Part shown: in pieces, positions 5,573-61,281 of the stretch
How the letters are laid out: every line of letters begins with the position of its first letter
How positions within the stretch are numbered: the first letter of the stretch is position 1
Assembly: GCF_903642285.1 (NCBI RefSeq)
Contig: NZ_CAHJWJ010000016.1
Coordinates: 1 to 64,000, forward strand
Direction of reading: 5' to 3'
Origin: Sphingomonas bacterium
GTDB lineage: Bacteria; Pseudomonadota; Alphaproteobacteria; Sphingomonadales; Sphingomonadaceae
DNA: 64,000 bases
The notes under the pieces: model-generated
Databases searched by the model: none
What the model was told of the DNA's origin: nothing
The model's input: only the letters and a program-made list of their open reading frames with translations
Program-made: the position numbers and the translations under genes

Positions 5573-8275
5573 TTACAGCGTCCGTTCGCGCATCTCGACC
5601 TCGAACGTCTCCAGGAAGTCGCCCGCCTTGATGTCGGTGAAGTTCTGCGTGAACGTCACACCGCACTCCAGCCCGGCGCGAACCTCCGGCACGTCGTCCT
5701 TGAACCGGCGAAGCGAGGCGATCTCGCCCTGGTAGATGATGACGTCGTTGCGCGTGATGCGGGCTTTCAGCGCCTTGCGGATGACGCCTTCGGTGACCAG
5801 CAGACCCGCCGCACGACCATGTTTGCCCGCCGAGAACACCTCGCGGATTTCGGCGCGGCCGACGACCGTCTCGAACGCTTCCGGCCCGAGTTCGCCCGCC
5901 ATGCCCGCCCTGATCTCGTCGACCAGATCGTAGATCACGTCGTAATATTTGAACGCGACCTTCTGGCGCTCGGCGATCTCGCGCGCCTTGGCATTGGGGC
6001 GCACGTTGAAGCCGATGATCGGGGCACCCGATGCACCCGCCAGCGTGACGTCGCTTTCGGTGATGCCGCCGACGCCCGAATGCAGCACGCGCGCCTTGAT
6101 GAGGTCGGTCGAGATCTTGTTGATCGCGCCGACGATCGCCTCGACCGTGCCTTGCGTGTCCGCCTTCACGACCAGCGGATATTCGATCGCCTGCTTTTCC
6201 TTCAGCGCGGAGAACATCGATTCCAGGCTGGCCGGGGCCGATGTGGTCCGCTTGTCGGTCAGGACGCCGCGACGGTATTCCGCGACTTCGCGCGCCCGCG
6301 CCTCGTTCTCGACGACCTGCAGCGGATCGCCCGCCGAAGGCACACCGGAAAGTCCCAGGACCTCGACCGGCATCGCCGGGCCGGCTTCCTTGACCTGCTT
6401 GCCCTTGTCATCGACCAGCGCGCGGACCTTGCCGCTTTCCGCACCGATGACGAAGATATCTCCGACCTTCAGCGTGCCGCGGTTGACCAGCACCGTCGCG
6501 ACGGGGCCGCGACCCTTGTCCAGCTTGGCCTCGATCACCGTGCCCTCGGCCGGACGATCGGGGTTGGCGCGCAGTTCGAGCAGTTCGGCCTGGAGTTGGA
6601 TCTTCTCGATCAGTTCGTCCAGCCCGGTCTTCTTCAGCGCGGACACCTCGACGTCCTGGACGTCGCCGCCCATGTCCTCGACGACGACTTCTTCGCTCAA
6701 CAGGCGCTCGCGTACCTTTTGCGGATTGGCGCCTTCCTTGTCGACCTTGTTGATCGCGACGATCATCGGGACGCCCGCGGCCTTGGTATGCGCGATCGCC
6801 TCCACCGTCTGCGGCATCAGGCCGTCGTCAGCGGCGACGACCAGCACGACGATGTCGGTCACGTCCGCGCCGCGGGCACGCATCTGCGTGAACGCCTCAT
6901 GGCCGGGCGTATCAAGGAAGGTGACCTTCGACTTGTCCTTCAGGGTCACCTGATACGCGCCGATATGCTGCGTTATCCCGCCCGCTTCGCCGCGGGCGAC
7001 GTCGGTGCCGCGCAGCGCGTCGAGCAAACTGGTCTTGCCGTGGTCGACGTGCCCCATGATGGTGACGACGGCGGGACGCGGCAGCAGATCGCCATCCTCT
7101 TCCTCGACCGTATCGATCGCCAGATCGGCATCGCTGTCGCTGACGCGGGTGATGTTGTGGCCGAATTCGGTCACCAGCAGTTCGGCGGTATCCTGGTCGA
7201 TCGTCTGCGTCAGCGTGACCGGCATGCCCATCTTGAACAATGCCTTGACCAGATCCGCGCCCTTTTCCGCCATGCGGATCGCCAGTTCCTGGACGGTGAT
7301 CGCGTCGGGCACGGCGACGTCGCGGACCTGCTTGGCCTGCGCCTCGCGCGGGCCGCCGATGCCGCGGCGTTCCTTCTCGCGCGCACGCTTCAGCGCGGCG
7401 AGGCTGCGGGCACGCGCGCCGTCACCGTCGCCCAGCGCGCGGTTGACGGTCAGCTTGCCCGATTGGCGGCGATCGTCACCCTTGCGATCGCGGAGCGACG
7501 GACGCCCGGGCAGGGCGTTTCGCGGGGTCGCGGTGCCCGCGGGCAGCGCACGTCCGGCAGTCGACGCCGCGGCTGCGGCCGCCGGCGCAGTCGGCTTTGC
7601 CGCTGCGGGGGGTGGTGGCGGCGAAGGCCGTTCGGGCCGCGCGACCGGCGAGAAGCGCCGGGGGGCGGGCATCGACGGATCGGGCTCGAGCGACGTGATC
7701 GGCGCAGGTGCGGCAACCGGATCGGATGTCTTCGGCGCAGGTGCGGCTTTCGCGACCTCGGGCTCGTGGCGGGGCGCGACTTCGGACGGCGCAGCGGCTT
7801 CGACCGGGGCGGGCTCGGGCACGGCCGGCTCGGGTGCAACGGGCGGATCCATCTGGACTCGCCGATTCTCCTCGATACGAAGCCGTTCGTCCTCGGCCGC
7901 ACGCTGGCGATCGCTCTCCTCGCGGCGGCGCGCATCTTCCAGCGTGTGCATGCGCTGGTCTTCGGCTTCGCGCAGCAGCAGCGCCTGGCGTTCCTGCGCC
8001 GACAGATTACTGACCGGCGCGCGAGGCTGGGCGGGCTGTGGCGCGGTCGCGACCGGCGCTGGGGTCGCGGCCTCGATCCGGGATCCCTCCTGAACCTGGG
8101 CTTCGGGCGCTGCGCCGCCCGGGCCGAGCACGCGACGGCGCTTCACTTCGACCACGACCGTGTTCGAACGGCCATGGCTGAAGCTCTGCTTCACCTTGCC
8201 GGTTTCGACCGTGCGCTTGACGCCCAAAGGCGTGCGCATGCCGAGCTTCGGCTTTTCGTTGTCGGTGTCGCTCAC
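5573..8275 (-). CDS. infB: Translation initiation factor IF-2
   Basis: GTPase that places initiator fMet-tRNA on the 30S subunit. The 900-residue protein begins [20 protein letters not shown], the alphaproteobacterial IF-2 N-domain. A Pro/Ala/Glu-rich linker with a charged coiled-coil segment (about 85-150) follows. The G domain shows GHVDHGKTS near residue 405, DTPGHEAF near 455 and NKVD near 508, and domains II-IV are complete. Its ATG overlaps the ylxR stop as ATGA. The linker is rich in GC and simple repeats, which explains several long spurious reading frames on the other strand. Confidence 0.98.
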
Positions 8276-8979
8276 TCAAATTCCTCGTGTGTCGTCACGG
8301 CCGGTAGGTCGCCGGAAAGTCCGGACGCCGATGGCCCTTGCGAGGCCGTTTCGCAAGGTACCGGGGGAAGATCGGGGCCGACGAAATGCAGCCAGCGGCC
8401 GAGCGCATCGCTCACCCGCTTTGCCGCAGCGCGGTCGGTCAGGCCGATATGTACCACATTCCCGCGGCCTAGCGCCAACCCCAATATGGTGCGGTCGATG
8501 GGCAGTGCCAAGCCCCGGACGTCACTGCCTTCGCGATCCGATCCGATCCGCCACGCCTGATCCAGCTTGCGGTTGCCGTCGGTACCGGCGTCCGAGGCGT
8601 GGTAGAGCGCATGCAGCTTGCCGCTGCGTGCCGCGGTTTCGATCCGTTCGGAGCCCGTCATCAGCGTGCCCGTCTTCGCTTCGAGCCCGAGCCGGTCGAG
8701 CGCATTGCGTTCGAGTGCGACGGCGATCATCCGCGGCAAATCGTCGGGGATCGTGATCGCCGCGCCCTTGAACGCCCGCGCCAGCGCGCCGCGCAGTTTC
8801 TTCTTGGCGATCGCGGTTTCCAGTTCGCCGCGCGGAACGCCGATCCACGCGCCGCGTCCGGGGGCCTTGGCGCGGATATCGGGCAGCACGACACCGTCGG
8901 GGGAGACCGCGAGTCGGATCAGGTGATCGCGCCCGTCGCGGTCGCGCGTCAGGATGCAGGAGCGGATGGGGTCAGTCAT
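8272..8979 (-). CDS. YlxR-family RNA-binding protein (DUF448)
   Basis: A 235-residue protein at the conserved ylxR position between nusA and infB. The N-terminal YlxR domain is recognisable in RSCILTRDRDGRDHLIRLAV and KAPGRGAWIGVPRGELETAI. The rest (about 100-200) resembles the L7Ae-like domain often fused to YlxR in alphaproteobacteria, ending in a variable tail. I choose the Met at 8979 because GGAG lies nine bases upstream. An in-frame Met five codons earlier is inside a palindromic repeat. YlxR is thought to bind RNA or to regulate rnpB or nucleoid genes in some bacteria; its role here is not known. Confidence 0.85.
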   Translation of the reverse strand: MTDPIRSCILTRDRDGRDHLIRLAVSPDGVVLPDIRAKAPGRGAWIGVPRGELETAIAKKKLRGALARAFKGAAITIPDDLPRMIAVALERNALDRLGLEAKTGTLMTGSERIETAARSGKLHALYHASDAGTDGNRKLDQAWRIGSDREGSDVRGLALPIDRTILGLALGRGNVVHIGLTDRAAAKRVSDALGRWLHFVGPDLPPVPCETASQGPSASGLSGDLPAVTTHEEFE

Positions 8980-8985
8980 GCGCAG

Positions 8986-9019
8986 CTCCGTCATGCCGGG
9001 CTTGTCCCGGCATCCAGAG
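8986..9019. repeat. Left inverted repeat bracketing the GIY-YIG gene (Pal-A half unit)
   Basis: It begins CTCCGTCATGCCGGGCTTGT and ends CCCGGCATCCAGAG. Internally ATGCCGGG and CCCGGCAT form a hairpin. It matches the reverse complement of 9418-9451 at 32 of 34 positions, and is also a near-exact direct copy of 9351-9384. Confidence 0.85.
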
Positions 9020-9346
9020 CCAACCAGACTGACTTCCGTGCGAGAACGCCAACCCTGCCTCTATATCCTGGCGAGCGAGCGCAACGGGACGCTGTATATC
9101 GGCGTCACGTCGAACTTGATCGGCAGGGTGATCCAACACCGTGAAAGCACGTTCGGCGGGTTCACCAGGCGCTACGGCGTGACAACGCTCGTCTGGTTCG
9201 ATGTCGCAGATACGATGGAAGCCGCCATCACCGTCGAGAAGCGGATCAAAAAATGGCCCCGCGCTTACAAACTCAACCTGATCGAGCGCGACAATCCACG
9301 CTGGCGAGACTTGGCGGTCGACCTGGGTTTGGAACCGCTGTCCTAA
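8993..9346 (+). CDS. GIY-YIG nuclease family protein bracketed by palindromic repeats
   Basis: A small single-domain GIY-YIG protein. CLYILASERNGTLYIGVTSN is the GIY-YIG pair (here LYI and YIG), IGRVIQHR holds the conserved Arg, AITVEKRIKKW the likely catalytic Glu and LIERDNPRW the conserved Asn region. It resembles the stand-alone UvrC/URI-type proteins common in sphingomonads. The ATG at 8993 lies inside the left repeat, whose translation gives MPGLSRHPE. A GTG at 9038 is an alternative start that would leave out the repeat. The gene is antisense to the nusA-infB operon and ends 7 bases before the next repeat. Whether it cuts DNA or is domesticated cannot be told. Confidence 0.8.
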   Translation: MPGLSRHPEPTRLTSVRERQPCLYILASERNGTLYIGVTSNLIGRVIQHRESTFGGFTRRYGVTTLVWFDVADTMEAAITVEKRIKKWPRAYKLNLIERDNPRWRDLAVDLGLEPLS

Positions 9347-9353
9347 TCCGTCC

Positions 9354-9447
9354 GTCATGCCGGGCTTGTCCTGGCATCCAGAGCCGCAGGGTACAGCGGC
9401 ATCGTCGGCGCGACCTACCCTGGATGCCGGGACGAGCCCGGCATGAC
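9354..9447. repeat. Full Pal-A palindromic unit downstream of the GIY-YIG gene
   Basis: The left half GTCATGCCGGGCTTGTCCTG is a direct copy of the repeat at 8990. The right half (9418-9451) ends GACGAGCCCGGCATGAC and is its inverted copy. The two halves flank a spacer of about 30 bases, the same layout as 17197-17278. Confidence 0.85.
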
Positions 9448-9467
9448 GGAGGTTGAACCTCAGCGCC

Positions 9468-9701
9468 TCATTGCGAGGATTCCGCATGTGCGTCCTCCTG
9501 CGTAACGGGTTTCGCGTCGCGGTCGGCGATCAGAAGGCCGCCCGCGCCGTAGTTTTCGGTCGACACCTCTTCGATCACGATCTGCACCGCGGCCGGGTTC
9601 TTGCCGAGCCGCGCGACCAGCGAGGACGTGACGTCGGCCACAATCCCCGCTTTCTGGTCCTTGCTGGCGGTGCCCGAGATCCGGATCGACACGAAGGGCA
9701 T
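9468..9701 (-). CDS. 4-oxalocrotonate tautomerase family protein
   Basis: A 77-residue protein of the tautomerase superfamily. [10 protein letters not shown] places the catalytic Pro directly after the initiator Met, and KAGIVADVTSSLVARLGKNPAAVQIVIEEV matches the helix-strand core. It lies immediately after nusA: the nusA stop and this start overlap as TGATG, so it is co-translated with the transcription factor gene. The substrate is unknown. Such small tautomerases act on enol or keto compounds, and their presence in a translation operon has no obvious functional reason. Confidence 0.85.
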   Translation of the reverse strand: MPFVSIRISGTASKDQKAGIVADVTSSLVARLGKNPAAVQIVIEEVSTENYGAGGLLIADRDAKPVTQEDAHAESSQ

Positions 9702-17166: not shown

Positions 17167-17196
17167 CGCTTATCTACCGGATCAGTCGCTAGAGTC

Positions 17197-17278
17197 GTCA
17201 TCCCGGGCTCGTCCCGGGATTCAGGGCCTCGAACGAAACTGCCTGCCGCTCTGGATGCCGGGACCCGCCCGGCATGAC
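17197..17278. repeat. Palindromic repeat Pal-A between convergent genes
   Basis: The left end GTCATCCCGGGCTCGTCCCG and the right end GGGACCCGCCCGGCATGAC are inverted relatives around a spacer of about 30 bases. It lies between the convergent hydrolase and DEAD-box helicase genes, where it could act as a bidirectional terminator. Confidence 0.85.
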
Positions 17279-17285
17279 GGAGGGA

Positions 17286-24841: not shown

Positions 24842-24848
24842 CATTTTC

Positions 24849-24875
24849 GTCATGCCGGGACGAGCCCGGCATGAC
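24849..24875. repeat. Short perfect palindrome Pal-A between convergent genes
   Basis: GTCATGCCGGGACGAGCCCG runs into the inverted end GGCATGAC: a 27-base unit with a 12-bp stem. It separates the convergent PAP2 and galE genes and may terminate both. A copy differing by one base is at 61199-61225. Confidence 0.85.
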
Positions 24876-24882
24876 GGAAGAA

Positions 24883-32509: not shown

Positions 32510-32596
32510 GTCGCCCGGGCTTGCGCCGGGTCCAGGGCGTAGCAGATCGACGGTCGTTGCTTGCGGTCCTGGAGGCCGGGACGAGCCCGGCATGAC
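32510..32596. repeat. Palindromic repeat Pal-A between convergent genes
   Basis: The left end GTCGCCCGGGCTTGCGCCGG (diverged) and the right end GGGACGAGCCCGGCATGAC flank a spacer with TCCAGGGC and GTCCTGGA. It lies between the convergent peptide transporter and aldo/keto reductase genes. Confidence 0.8.
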
Positions 32597-32602
32597 GAGC
32601 TT

Positions 32603-61188: not shown

Positions 61189-61198
61189 CATCATTTCC

Positions 61199-61225
61199 GT
61201 CATGCCGGGACAAGCCCGGCATGAC
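61199..61225. repeat. Short perfect palindrome Pal-A between terminase and portal genes
   Basis: GTCATGCCGGGACAAGCCCG runs into GGCATGAC, a 12-bp stem with a three-base loop. It differs by one base from the copy at 24849-24875, and lies 11 bases after the TerL stop inside the GTA operon. Confidence 0.85.
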
Positions 61226-61281
61226 GACGTTTTGCGGCGGTGACGGATGTCGATCCCTCGCCCACGTTCAAAGGACAGCTC

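Follow-up and report, generated by a model that had tools for sequence, protein, structure and literature searches.

GIY-YIG nuclease genes bracketed by REP-like palindromes in sphingomonads and other bacteria

In Neisseria, the site-specific single-strand nucleases (Ssn), reportedly the subject of a 2025 Nat Commun paper by Chenal et al., are said to belong to the GIY-YIG superfamily and to have a dispersed cognate repeat. The family described here has a similar make-up, a small GIY-YIG protein paired with a multicopy cognate repeat. Single-strand cutting is reported for the Neisseria proteins; for our family we can document a REP-bounded unit, candidate gene-less REP-dimer derivatives and several coexisting nuclease/repeat pairs per genome.

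A second point of comparison is provided by the RAYT (TnpA-REP) REPtrons, which are built on GTAG REPs (PMC2817692; PMC3733652). RAYT REPtrons share with our unit a REP-flanked gene, repeat-specific partners, several such pairs per genome and dispersed REP dimers; their partner protein is an HUH tyrosine transposase, whereas ours is a GIY-YIG nuclease with a CGTC-class REP. CGTC REPs carry the tag CGTC, a stem of 8-9 bp, a loop of 4-5 nt and a CCA tail, are mostly arranged as head-to-head dimers, and have been described from alphaproteobacteria, Neisseria (dRS3) and Rickettsia (RPE) (PMC3733652). This 2013 survey describes CGTC REPs as lacking an associated transposase gene (PMC3733652), whereas those of the family analyzed here have an associated nuclease gene.

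The window is a stretch of 64,000 nucleotides from Sphingomonas bacterium (GCF_903642285.1, contig NZ_CAHJWJ010000016.1, forward-strand positions 1 to 64,000). A GIY-YIG gene in it had been noticed between 34-base inverted repeats with two mismatches, and we recover the same pair as arms of 32 nt that are 97% complementary (8986-9017 versus 9420-9451; Table 1). The left repeat, described as a near-exact direct copy of 9351-9384, matches over 35 nt at 97% (8987-9021 versus 9351-9385). Since 9351-9381 and 9420-9450 are inverted relative to each other and separated by 38 nt, a direct and an inverted copy make up a complete REP dimer at the right end of the unit; the left REP, upstream of the nuclease gene, is single. 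The predicted order of half palindrome, nuclease gene and complete palindrome is thus confirmed, and the unit does lie antisense in a leftward run of nusA, tautomerase, ylxR and infB genes. The unit's repeats show the tag, stem, loop and CCA tail of CGTC REPs, and a hairpin is predicted for the REP as a single strand (z -4.28).

Table 1. Features of the unit, its neighbors and dispersed repeats in the window
Feature	Position	Strand	Evidence
Left CGTC-tagged REP (tag CGTC, 8-bp stem, 5-nt loop, CCA tail)	8986..9021	+	Repeat comparison, fold
Solo GIY-YIG nuclease gene, start GTG 9038	9038..9346	+	Pfam PF01541, conserved start, catalytic residues
Second REP, direct copy of left REP	9351..9385	+	Repeat comparison
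Third REP, inverted; forms REP dimer (REPIN-like) with 9351-9385	9420..9451	-	
ylxR, flanking gene; conserved start MTD at 8979, immediately outside left REP	8272..8979	-	
Tautomerase-family gene, nusA side of unit	9468..9701	-	
Inverted pair of CGTC REPs, gene-less, dispersed	17196..17279	.	
Single Pal-A copy, dispersed	32569..32597	-	

The window protein has a GIY-YIG domain (Pfam PF01541, 51.4 bits against a cut-off of 22.6), its sole Pfam match. RAYT membership was considered and rejected, as the gene encodes this domain only and not an HUH transposase. Residues Y8, Y19, R29, H33 and E66 do not vary across 37 homologues, and N85 hardly does. The predicted model has a pLDDT of 93.5, and its best PDB match by Foldseek is a GIY-YIG protein; domain, catalytic residues and fold all place the protein in the GIY-YIG superfamily. 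UPF0213 protein BH0048 (1zg2), Slx1 and the UvrC GIY-YIG domains share this fold, with 1zg2 alone among the nearest solved structures at a Foldseek E < 0.001, and are very weakly similar to the window protein in sequence (E 0.15 and 0.36). No match to a phage or defence family was found in PHROGs or PADLOC.

In all 70 genus loci analyzed below, a start codon lies within two codons of the beginning of the domain, which in the window corresponds to GTG 9038, ∼17 nt past the left repeat. The original prediction put the start at an ATG in the left half palindrome; an in-frame ATG is indeed present (8993), but in view of the conserved position we reject a start codon within the repeat. The nuclease is under strong purifying selection (median dN/dS 0.09, maximum 0.23, for 82 gene pairs of 80-98.5% identity). 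An in-frame stop interrupts 7 of 70 copies in 12 multi-copy genomes (L307, L313, L320, L334, L336, L348 and L357), hence some copies decay, and dead ones persist beside intact ones.

The 26-nt palindrome of the unit (Pal-A) is found, at up to three mismatches, at 95 places (49 + 46) in the host genome (3.05 Mb in 54 contigs), compared to 0 for the reversed control. Inverted pairs account for 22 of the 30 best-matching of these places, three of the 30 being the window's own unit. Start-to-start spacing is 45-68, mostly 53-56 or 66-68, and this arrangement is that of the head-to-head dimers of CGTC REPs. Four relatives of the nuclease were found in the host, each bracketed by a different repeat class; three of the four classes were counted, at 95, 104 and 10 places. 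Pal-A itself was not found at the host paralogues L032-L034 and is, alone, too narrow as a search motif. A wider detector finds L033 flanked, and by the flank score described below L032, L033 and L034 all are. The second abundant palindrome of the host, CCACCCCSGCGAAGGCSGGGGCCCAG, is without a CGTC tag, occurs at 54 + 50 places, many of them inverted pairs 76-79 apart, and brackets paralogue L032 (C18:425-799).

Relatives of the nuclease (E 1e-10 or better) are present in 264 of 295 genomes of the genus, often in several copies. From the listed matches we used the best 70 (30 + 40 loci), a non-random set in which many loci are orthologues adjoining ylxR. Strict CGTC-REPs occur at 3.06 per kb near these genes (-250 to +600), compared to 0.25 per kb elsewhere, on both sides of the gene in 54 of the 70 loci and on at least one side in 65. 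Their distances are stereotyped: the nearest upstream REP lies at -52 in forward orientation in 17 loci and at -43 to -45 in reverse orientation in 18. For more distant relatives, we scored the best ungapped repeat common to the upstream and downstream flank, with a threshold of 17; the window gene scores 32, and a scan of the window at 420 grid positions gives none that reaches the threshold. At the class level, 23 of 29 loci exceed it, as against 1 of 104 shifted windows (counted from listed values). The strict CGTC detector finds only 10 of these 29, and hence the wider score was needed; in some nuclease clades the repeats are without the CGTC tag.

Across bacteria, 82 of 104 loci are repeat-flanked versus 6 of 694 shifted windows. 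This set combines named contigs from many groups with a phylum sample, less 5 of 109 loci dropped for lying near a contig end. The groups in which REP-like repeats exceed the threshold include sphingomonads, gamma- and betaproteobacteria, Neisseria gonorrhoeae, Nitrospinae, Scalindua and Omnitrophus; a Bipolaricaulota locus also exceeds it, but its repeat is not REP-like and one of its own controls is over the threshold. For 12 genus genomes with multiple copies, 63 of 70 loci are flanked, and 67 when the strict detector is added, compared to 0 of 30 controls (one random shifted window per locus where long enough). These 70 loci derive from 98 matches, 28 having been left out as partial or not fetched. 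The locus sets overlap to some extent: L267 is the window, L286, L274 and L196 repeat L134, L136 and L135, and some named loci (e.g. L183 and L036) come from genomes of the genus set. Homologues are thus flanked by repeats far more often than shifted windows are, contrary to the possibility that most would lack palindromes.

Might such brackets arise by coincidence, with REPs collecting in intergenic DNA beside small genes or acting as their terminators? REPs are located mainly between genes, and a hairpin could terminate transcription. However, brackets are rare in the shifted windows and absent from the window grid, upstream REPs sit at fixed distances, and repeats covary with nucleases within genomes (see below). 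We regard coincidence as highly improbable.

As a planned negative control, we scored a second GIY-YIG subfamily, with a motif like YILRCxDGSYYTGHTDDLE. In this group, 18 of 20 loci turned out to be flanked (two window placements per locus), the two loci below threshold being L385 (score 15) and L398 (score 9, UPF0213-like by eye). The sphingomonad loci are bracketed by the palindrome CCGTTCGTCCTGAGCTTGTCGAAGGAC and variants, 12 of 13 (L382-L394) being over the threshold, and L034 of the host (C18:11902-12150) is flanked in the same way. The partnership therefore extends beyond one subfamily, and GIY-YIG genes per se cannot serve as a control; the controls that stand are the shifted windows and the window grid.

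The 12 multi-copy genomes allow repeats to be compared with nucleases. Paralogues of the same genome often have different REPs, and related nucleases of other genomes have similar ones; classes of nuclease and REP include ATGCTGAA, ATGCCAGCG and CACCCCGGCC. Repeat distance correlates with protein distance (r 0.368) over 1983 pairs from different genomes, drawn from 67 loci (57 syntenic pairs excluded; L292, L302 and L358 excluded as without a usable repeat). No shuffle reached this value, whether among 5000 free ones or among 5000 confined to single genomes. The repeat is closer to that of the nearest homologue elsewhere than to those of own-genome paralogues in 55 cases, versus 12 in which it is not. 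For a narrower set of 43 loci, r is 0.413 and the cases divide 34 to 8, with one tie (28 syntenic pairs excluded). That relatives' repeats change in step with the enzyme suggests that the enzyme recognizes the repeats and may help spread them. One caveat here is that units and REPs moving together would also yield covariation, and hence these data establish a lasting link rather than recognition as such. Taken with the flanking, the covariation indicates that the partner gene is probably flanked by its specific REPs, as in a REPtron.

Genome-wide copy numbers follow the nuclease as well. The T class REP GTCATGCTGAACTTGTTTCAGCATCC is found at 107, 81, 48, 44, 5 and 5 places in the six genomes with a T nuclease and at 8, 2, 0, 0, 0 and 0 places in the six others (one-sided p 0.006). 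For the S class REP, the counts are 88, 42, 27, 16 and 8 in five S-labelled genomes and 38, 3, 1, 0, 0, 0 and 0 in the seven others (p 0.010). Both the T and S counts include the flanking copies used to label the genomes; many of the places in genome G056 belong to a variant with 2-3 mismatches, and G116 is labelled S from a REP position beside a match outside the loci taken. The exception is G138, which has 38 S-class REPs and no S-class nuclease among the loci taken.

Discrete copies of a unit can be seen in genome G105, where three paralogous units of 401 bp each lie on three contigs with 82-87% DNA identity. The similarity between them starts and stops within 4 bp of the REP tips, giving these copies the defined ends at dispersed places that characterize an insertion sequence. 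Other unit pairs are similar, but in some the match ends short of the far REP tip. Near one G105 unit lies a REP dimer that matches the left 63 bp and the right 40 bp of the unit, as would an internal-deletion derivative. Of 19 relatives' loci compared with that G105 copy, 13 match it on both flanks; in the listed pieces the unit is seen at none of the 19. Gaps between the flanks are down to ∼10 bp in relatives, and the extra sequence in G105 exceeds the unit alone. At the junctions and copies compared, where intergenic flanks are highly diverged, we found no target-site duplication or exact insertion site.

We compared the nusA-tautomerase-ylxR junction at 50 loci, chosen rather than random: 30 were the best ylxR matches, and 20 were selected for close relationship to gene-bearing loci. 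After leaving out L178, in which the tautomerase gene was not found, 8 of 49 junctions have the gene with repeats, 7 have a strict REP but no gene, and the other 34 have neither, although one of the last group (L107) shows a REP-like pair by eye. In sister species, the spacing between the neighboring genes is 11 nt versus 532-535 in one case and 20 versus 544 in another. Comparing this junction among relatives had been proposed as a way to find the exact insertion ends; states with and without the unit were obtained, but the site itself and any duplication were not. The seven REP-only junctions, relevant to whether the repeat can arrive without the gene, are compatible either with gene loss or with independent arrival of the repeat. 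The gene beside ylxR is common to many members of the genus, which makes it look like a long-inherited resident there and unlike a recently active transposon, while its REPs vary between species. Within a genome, protein identity between copies reaches 88% at most, so no recent jump was seen.

Finding REP-only, full and empty states at a single junction is also what one could expect from homing into REP dimers, a gene-less dimer on another chromosome copy or on incoming DNA being cut and the gene copied in by repair. GIY-YIG domains are present in known homing endonucleases, and the REP dimer looks like the unit minus its middle. No conversion of a dimer into a unit was seen. Moreover, at many loci unrelated to one another repeats sit alike at both ends, and the class of REP goes with the nuclease, so that movement of the whole unit explains as much. 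We consider homing improbable.

The reading we favor, with slightly better than even confidence, is that of a REPtron-like unit: its nuclease would act on the cognate REP, and gene-less REP pairs would be its derivatives. The minimal element would consist of an inverted CGTC-tagged REP, a solo GIY-YIG gene and an inverted REP. The nuclease would recognize the REP of its own unit, most likely in hairpin form where DNA is single-stranded, as in replication or DNA uptake. It would cut at or near this REP and thereby allow infrequent copying or movement of the unit and the gene-less REP dimers. By analogy, the GIY-YIG nuclease most likely fills the role that the RAYT transposase has at GTAG REPs. 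Here we infer recognition and cutting of the REP, specificity for single strands and nuclease-driven spread. Thus, while the observation underlying the original prediction is confirmed and a repeat/nuclease partnership is backed by the flank scores and the covariation, its interpretation is partly supported: the repeat-bracketed unit has discrete counterparts in G105, and its cleavage activity and movement are inferential.

A protein from N. gonorrhoeae, which may be Ssn, is 62% identical to the window protein. It sits among dRS3-type palindromes (12 places in 8.3 kb). Because of this identity and setting, the window nuclease likely belongs to the Ssn kind. In an alternative explanation, the nuclease would be an Ssn-like modulator of DNA uptake or recombination that cuts REP-bearing single-stranded DNA, with the bracket keeping the two linked and other machinery spreading the REPs. 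The reported activity of Neisseria Ssn and the gonococcal relative both fit such a role, and strong purifying selection and long residence at nusA-ylxR suit a host function. On the other hand, REP-tip-bounded units lie at unrelated locations within a single genome, and several repeat/nuclease pairs coexist per genome, both of which suggest mobility too. We judge a purely modulatory role to be rather unlikely, though deserving of some weight.

The association foreseen in the original prediction holds, but its novelty is doubtful given that Ssn was reportedly published in 2025, and this kind of nuclease/repeat pair is probably already known. Potentially new aspects are the discrete unit, the REP-dimer derivatives, the coexisting pairs with covariation within genomes and the link to CGTC REPs. 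Among the listed matches from open-licence literature (titles and starts of abstracts), we found no report pairing GIY-YIG proteins with REPs, which is weak evidence of absence.

A broader form of the REPtron-like reading, to which we give somewhat less than even credence, is that the movers so far lacking for CGTC REPs and for several other REP classes are solo GIY-YIG nucleases. These would then form bacteria-wide minimal mobile elements of ∼400 bp (REP, nuclease, REP), parallel but unrelated to RAYT REPtrons, with a REP of its own for each clade, coexisting pairs in a genome, MITE-like REP dimers and at least one further GIY-YIG subfamily with another palindrome. A GIY-YIG family could in this way fill the transposase gap that the 2013 survey describes for the CGTC REPs (PMC3733652). 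A cognate nuclease would make the origin, spread and function of CGTC REPs testable with a protein of ∼100 residues. Nuclease clades with differing repeats offer a natural comparison for working out how hairpin DNA might be read by GIY-YIG proteins, and site-specific single-strand cutters are a possible use.

Several minor features of the window were also noted. Within 8977-8992, the outer tip of the left REP reads GACGGAG on the minus strand; its GGAG lies ∼7 nt before the ylxR start and may act as the ylxR ribosome-binding site. The tautomerase-family gene lies between nusA and ylxR in 49 of the 50 genus junctions examined, a setting that to our knowledge has not been described. Finally, at 24848-24876 and 61198-61226 the REP has CGTC on both strands, GATGACG replacing the CCA tail, and these two sites are fully symmetric palindromes.
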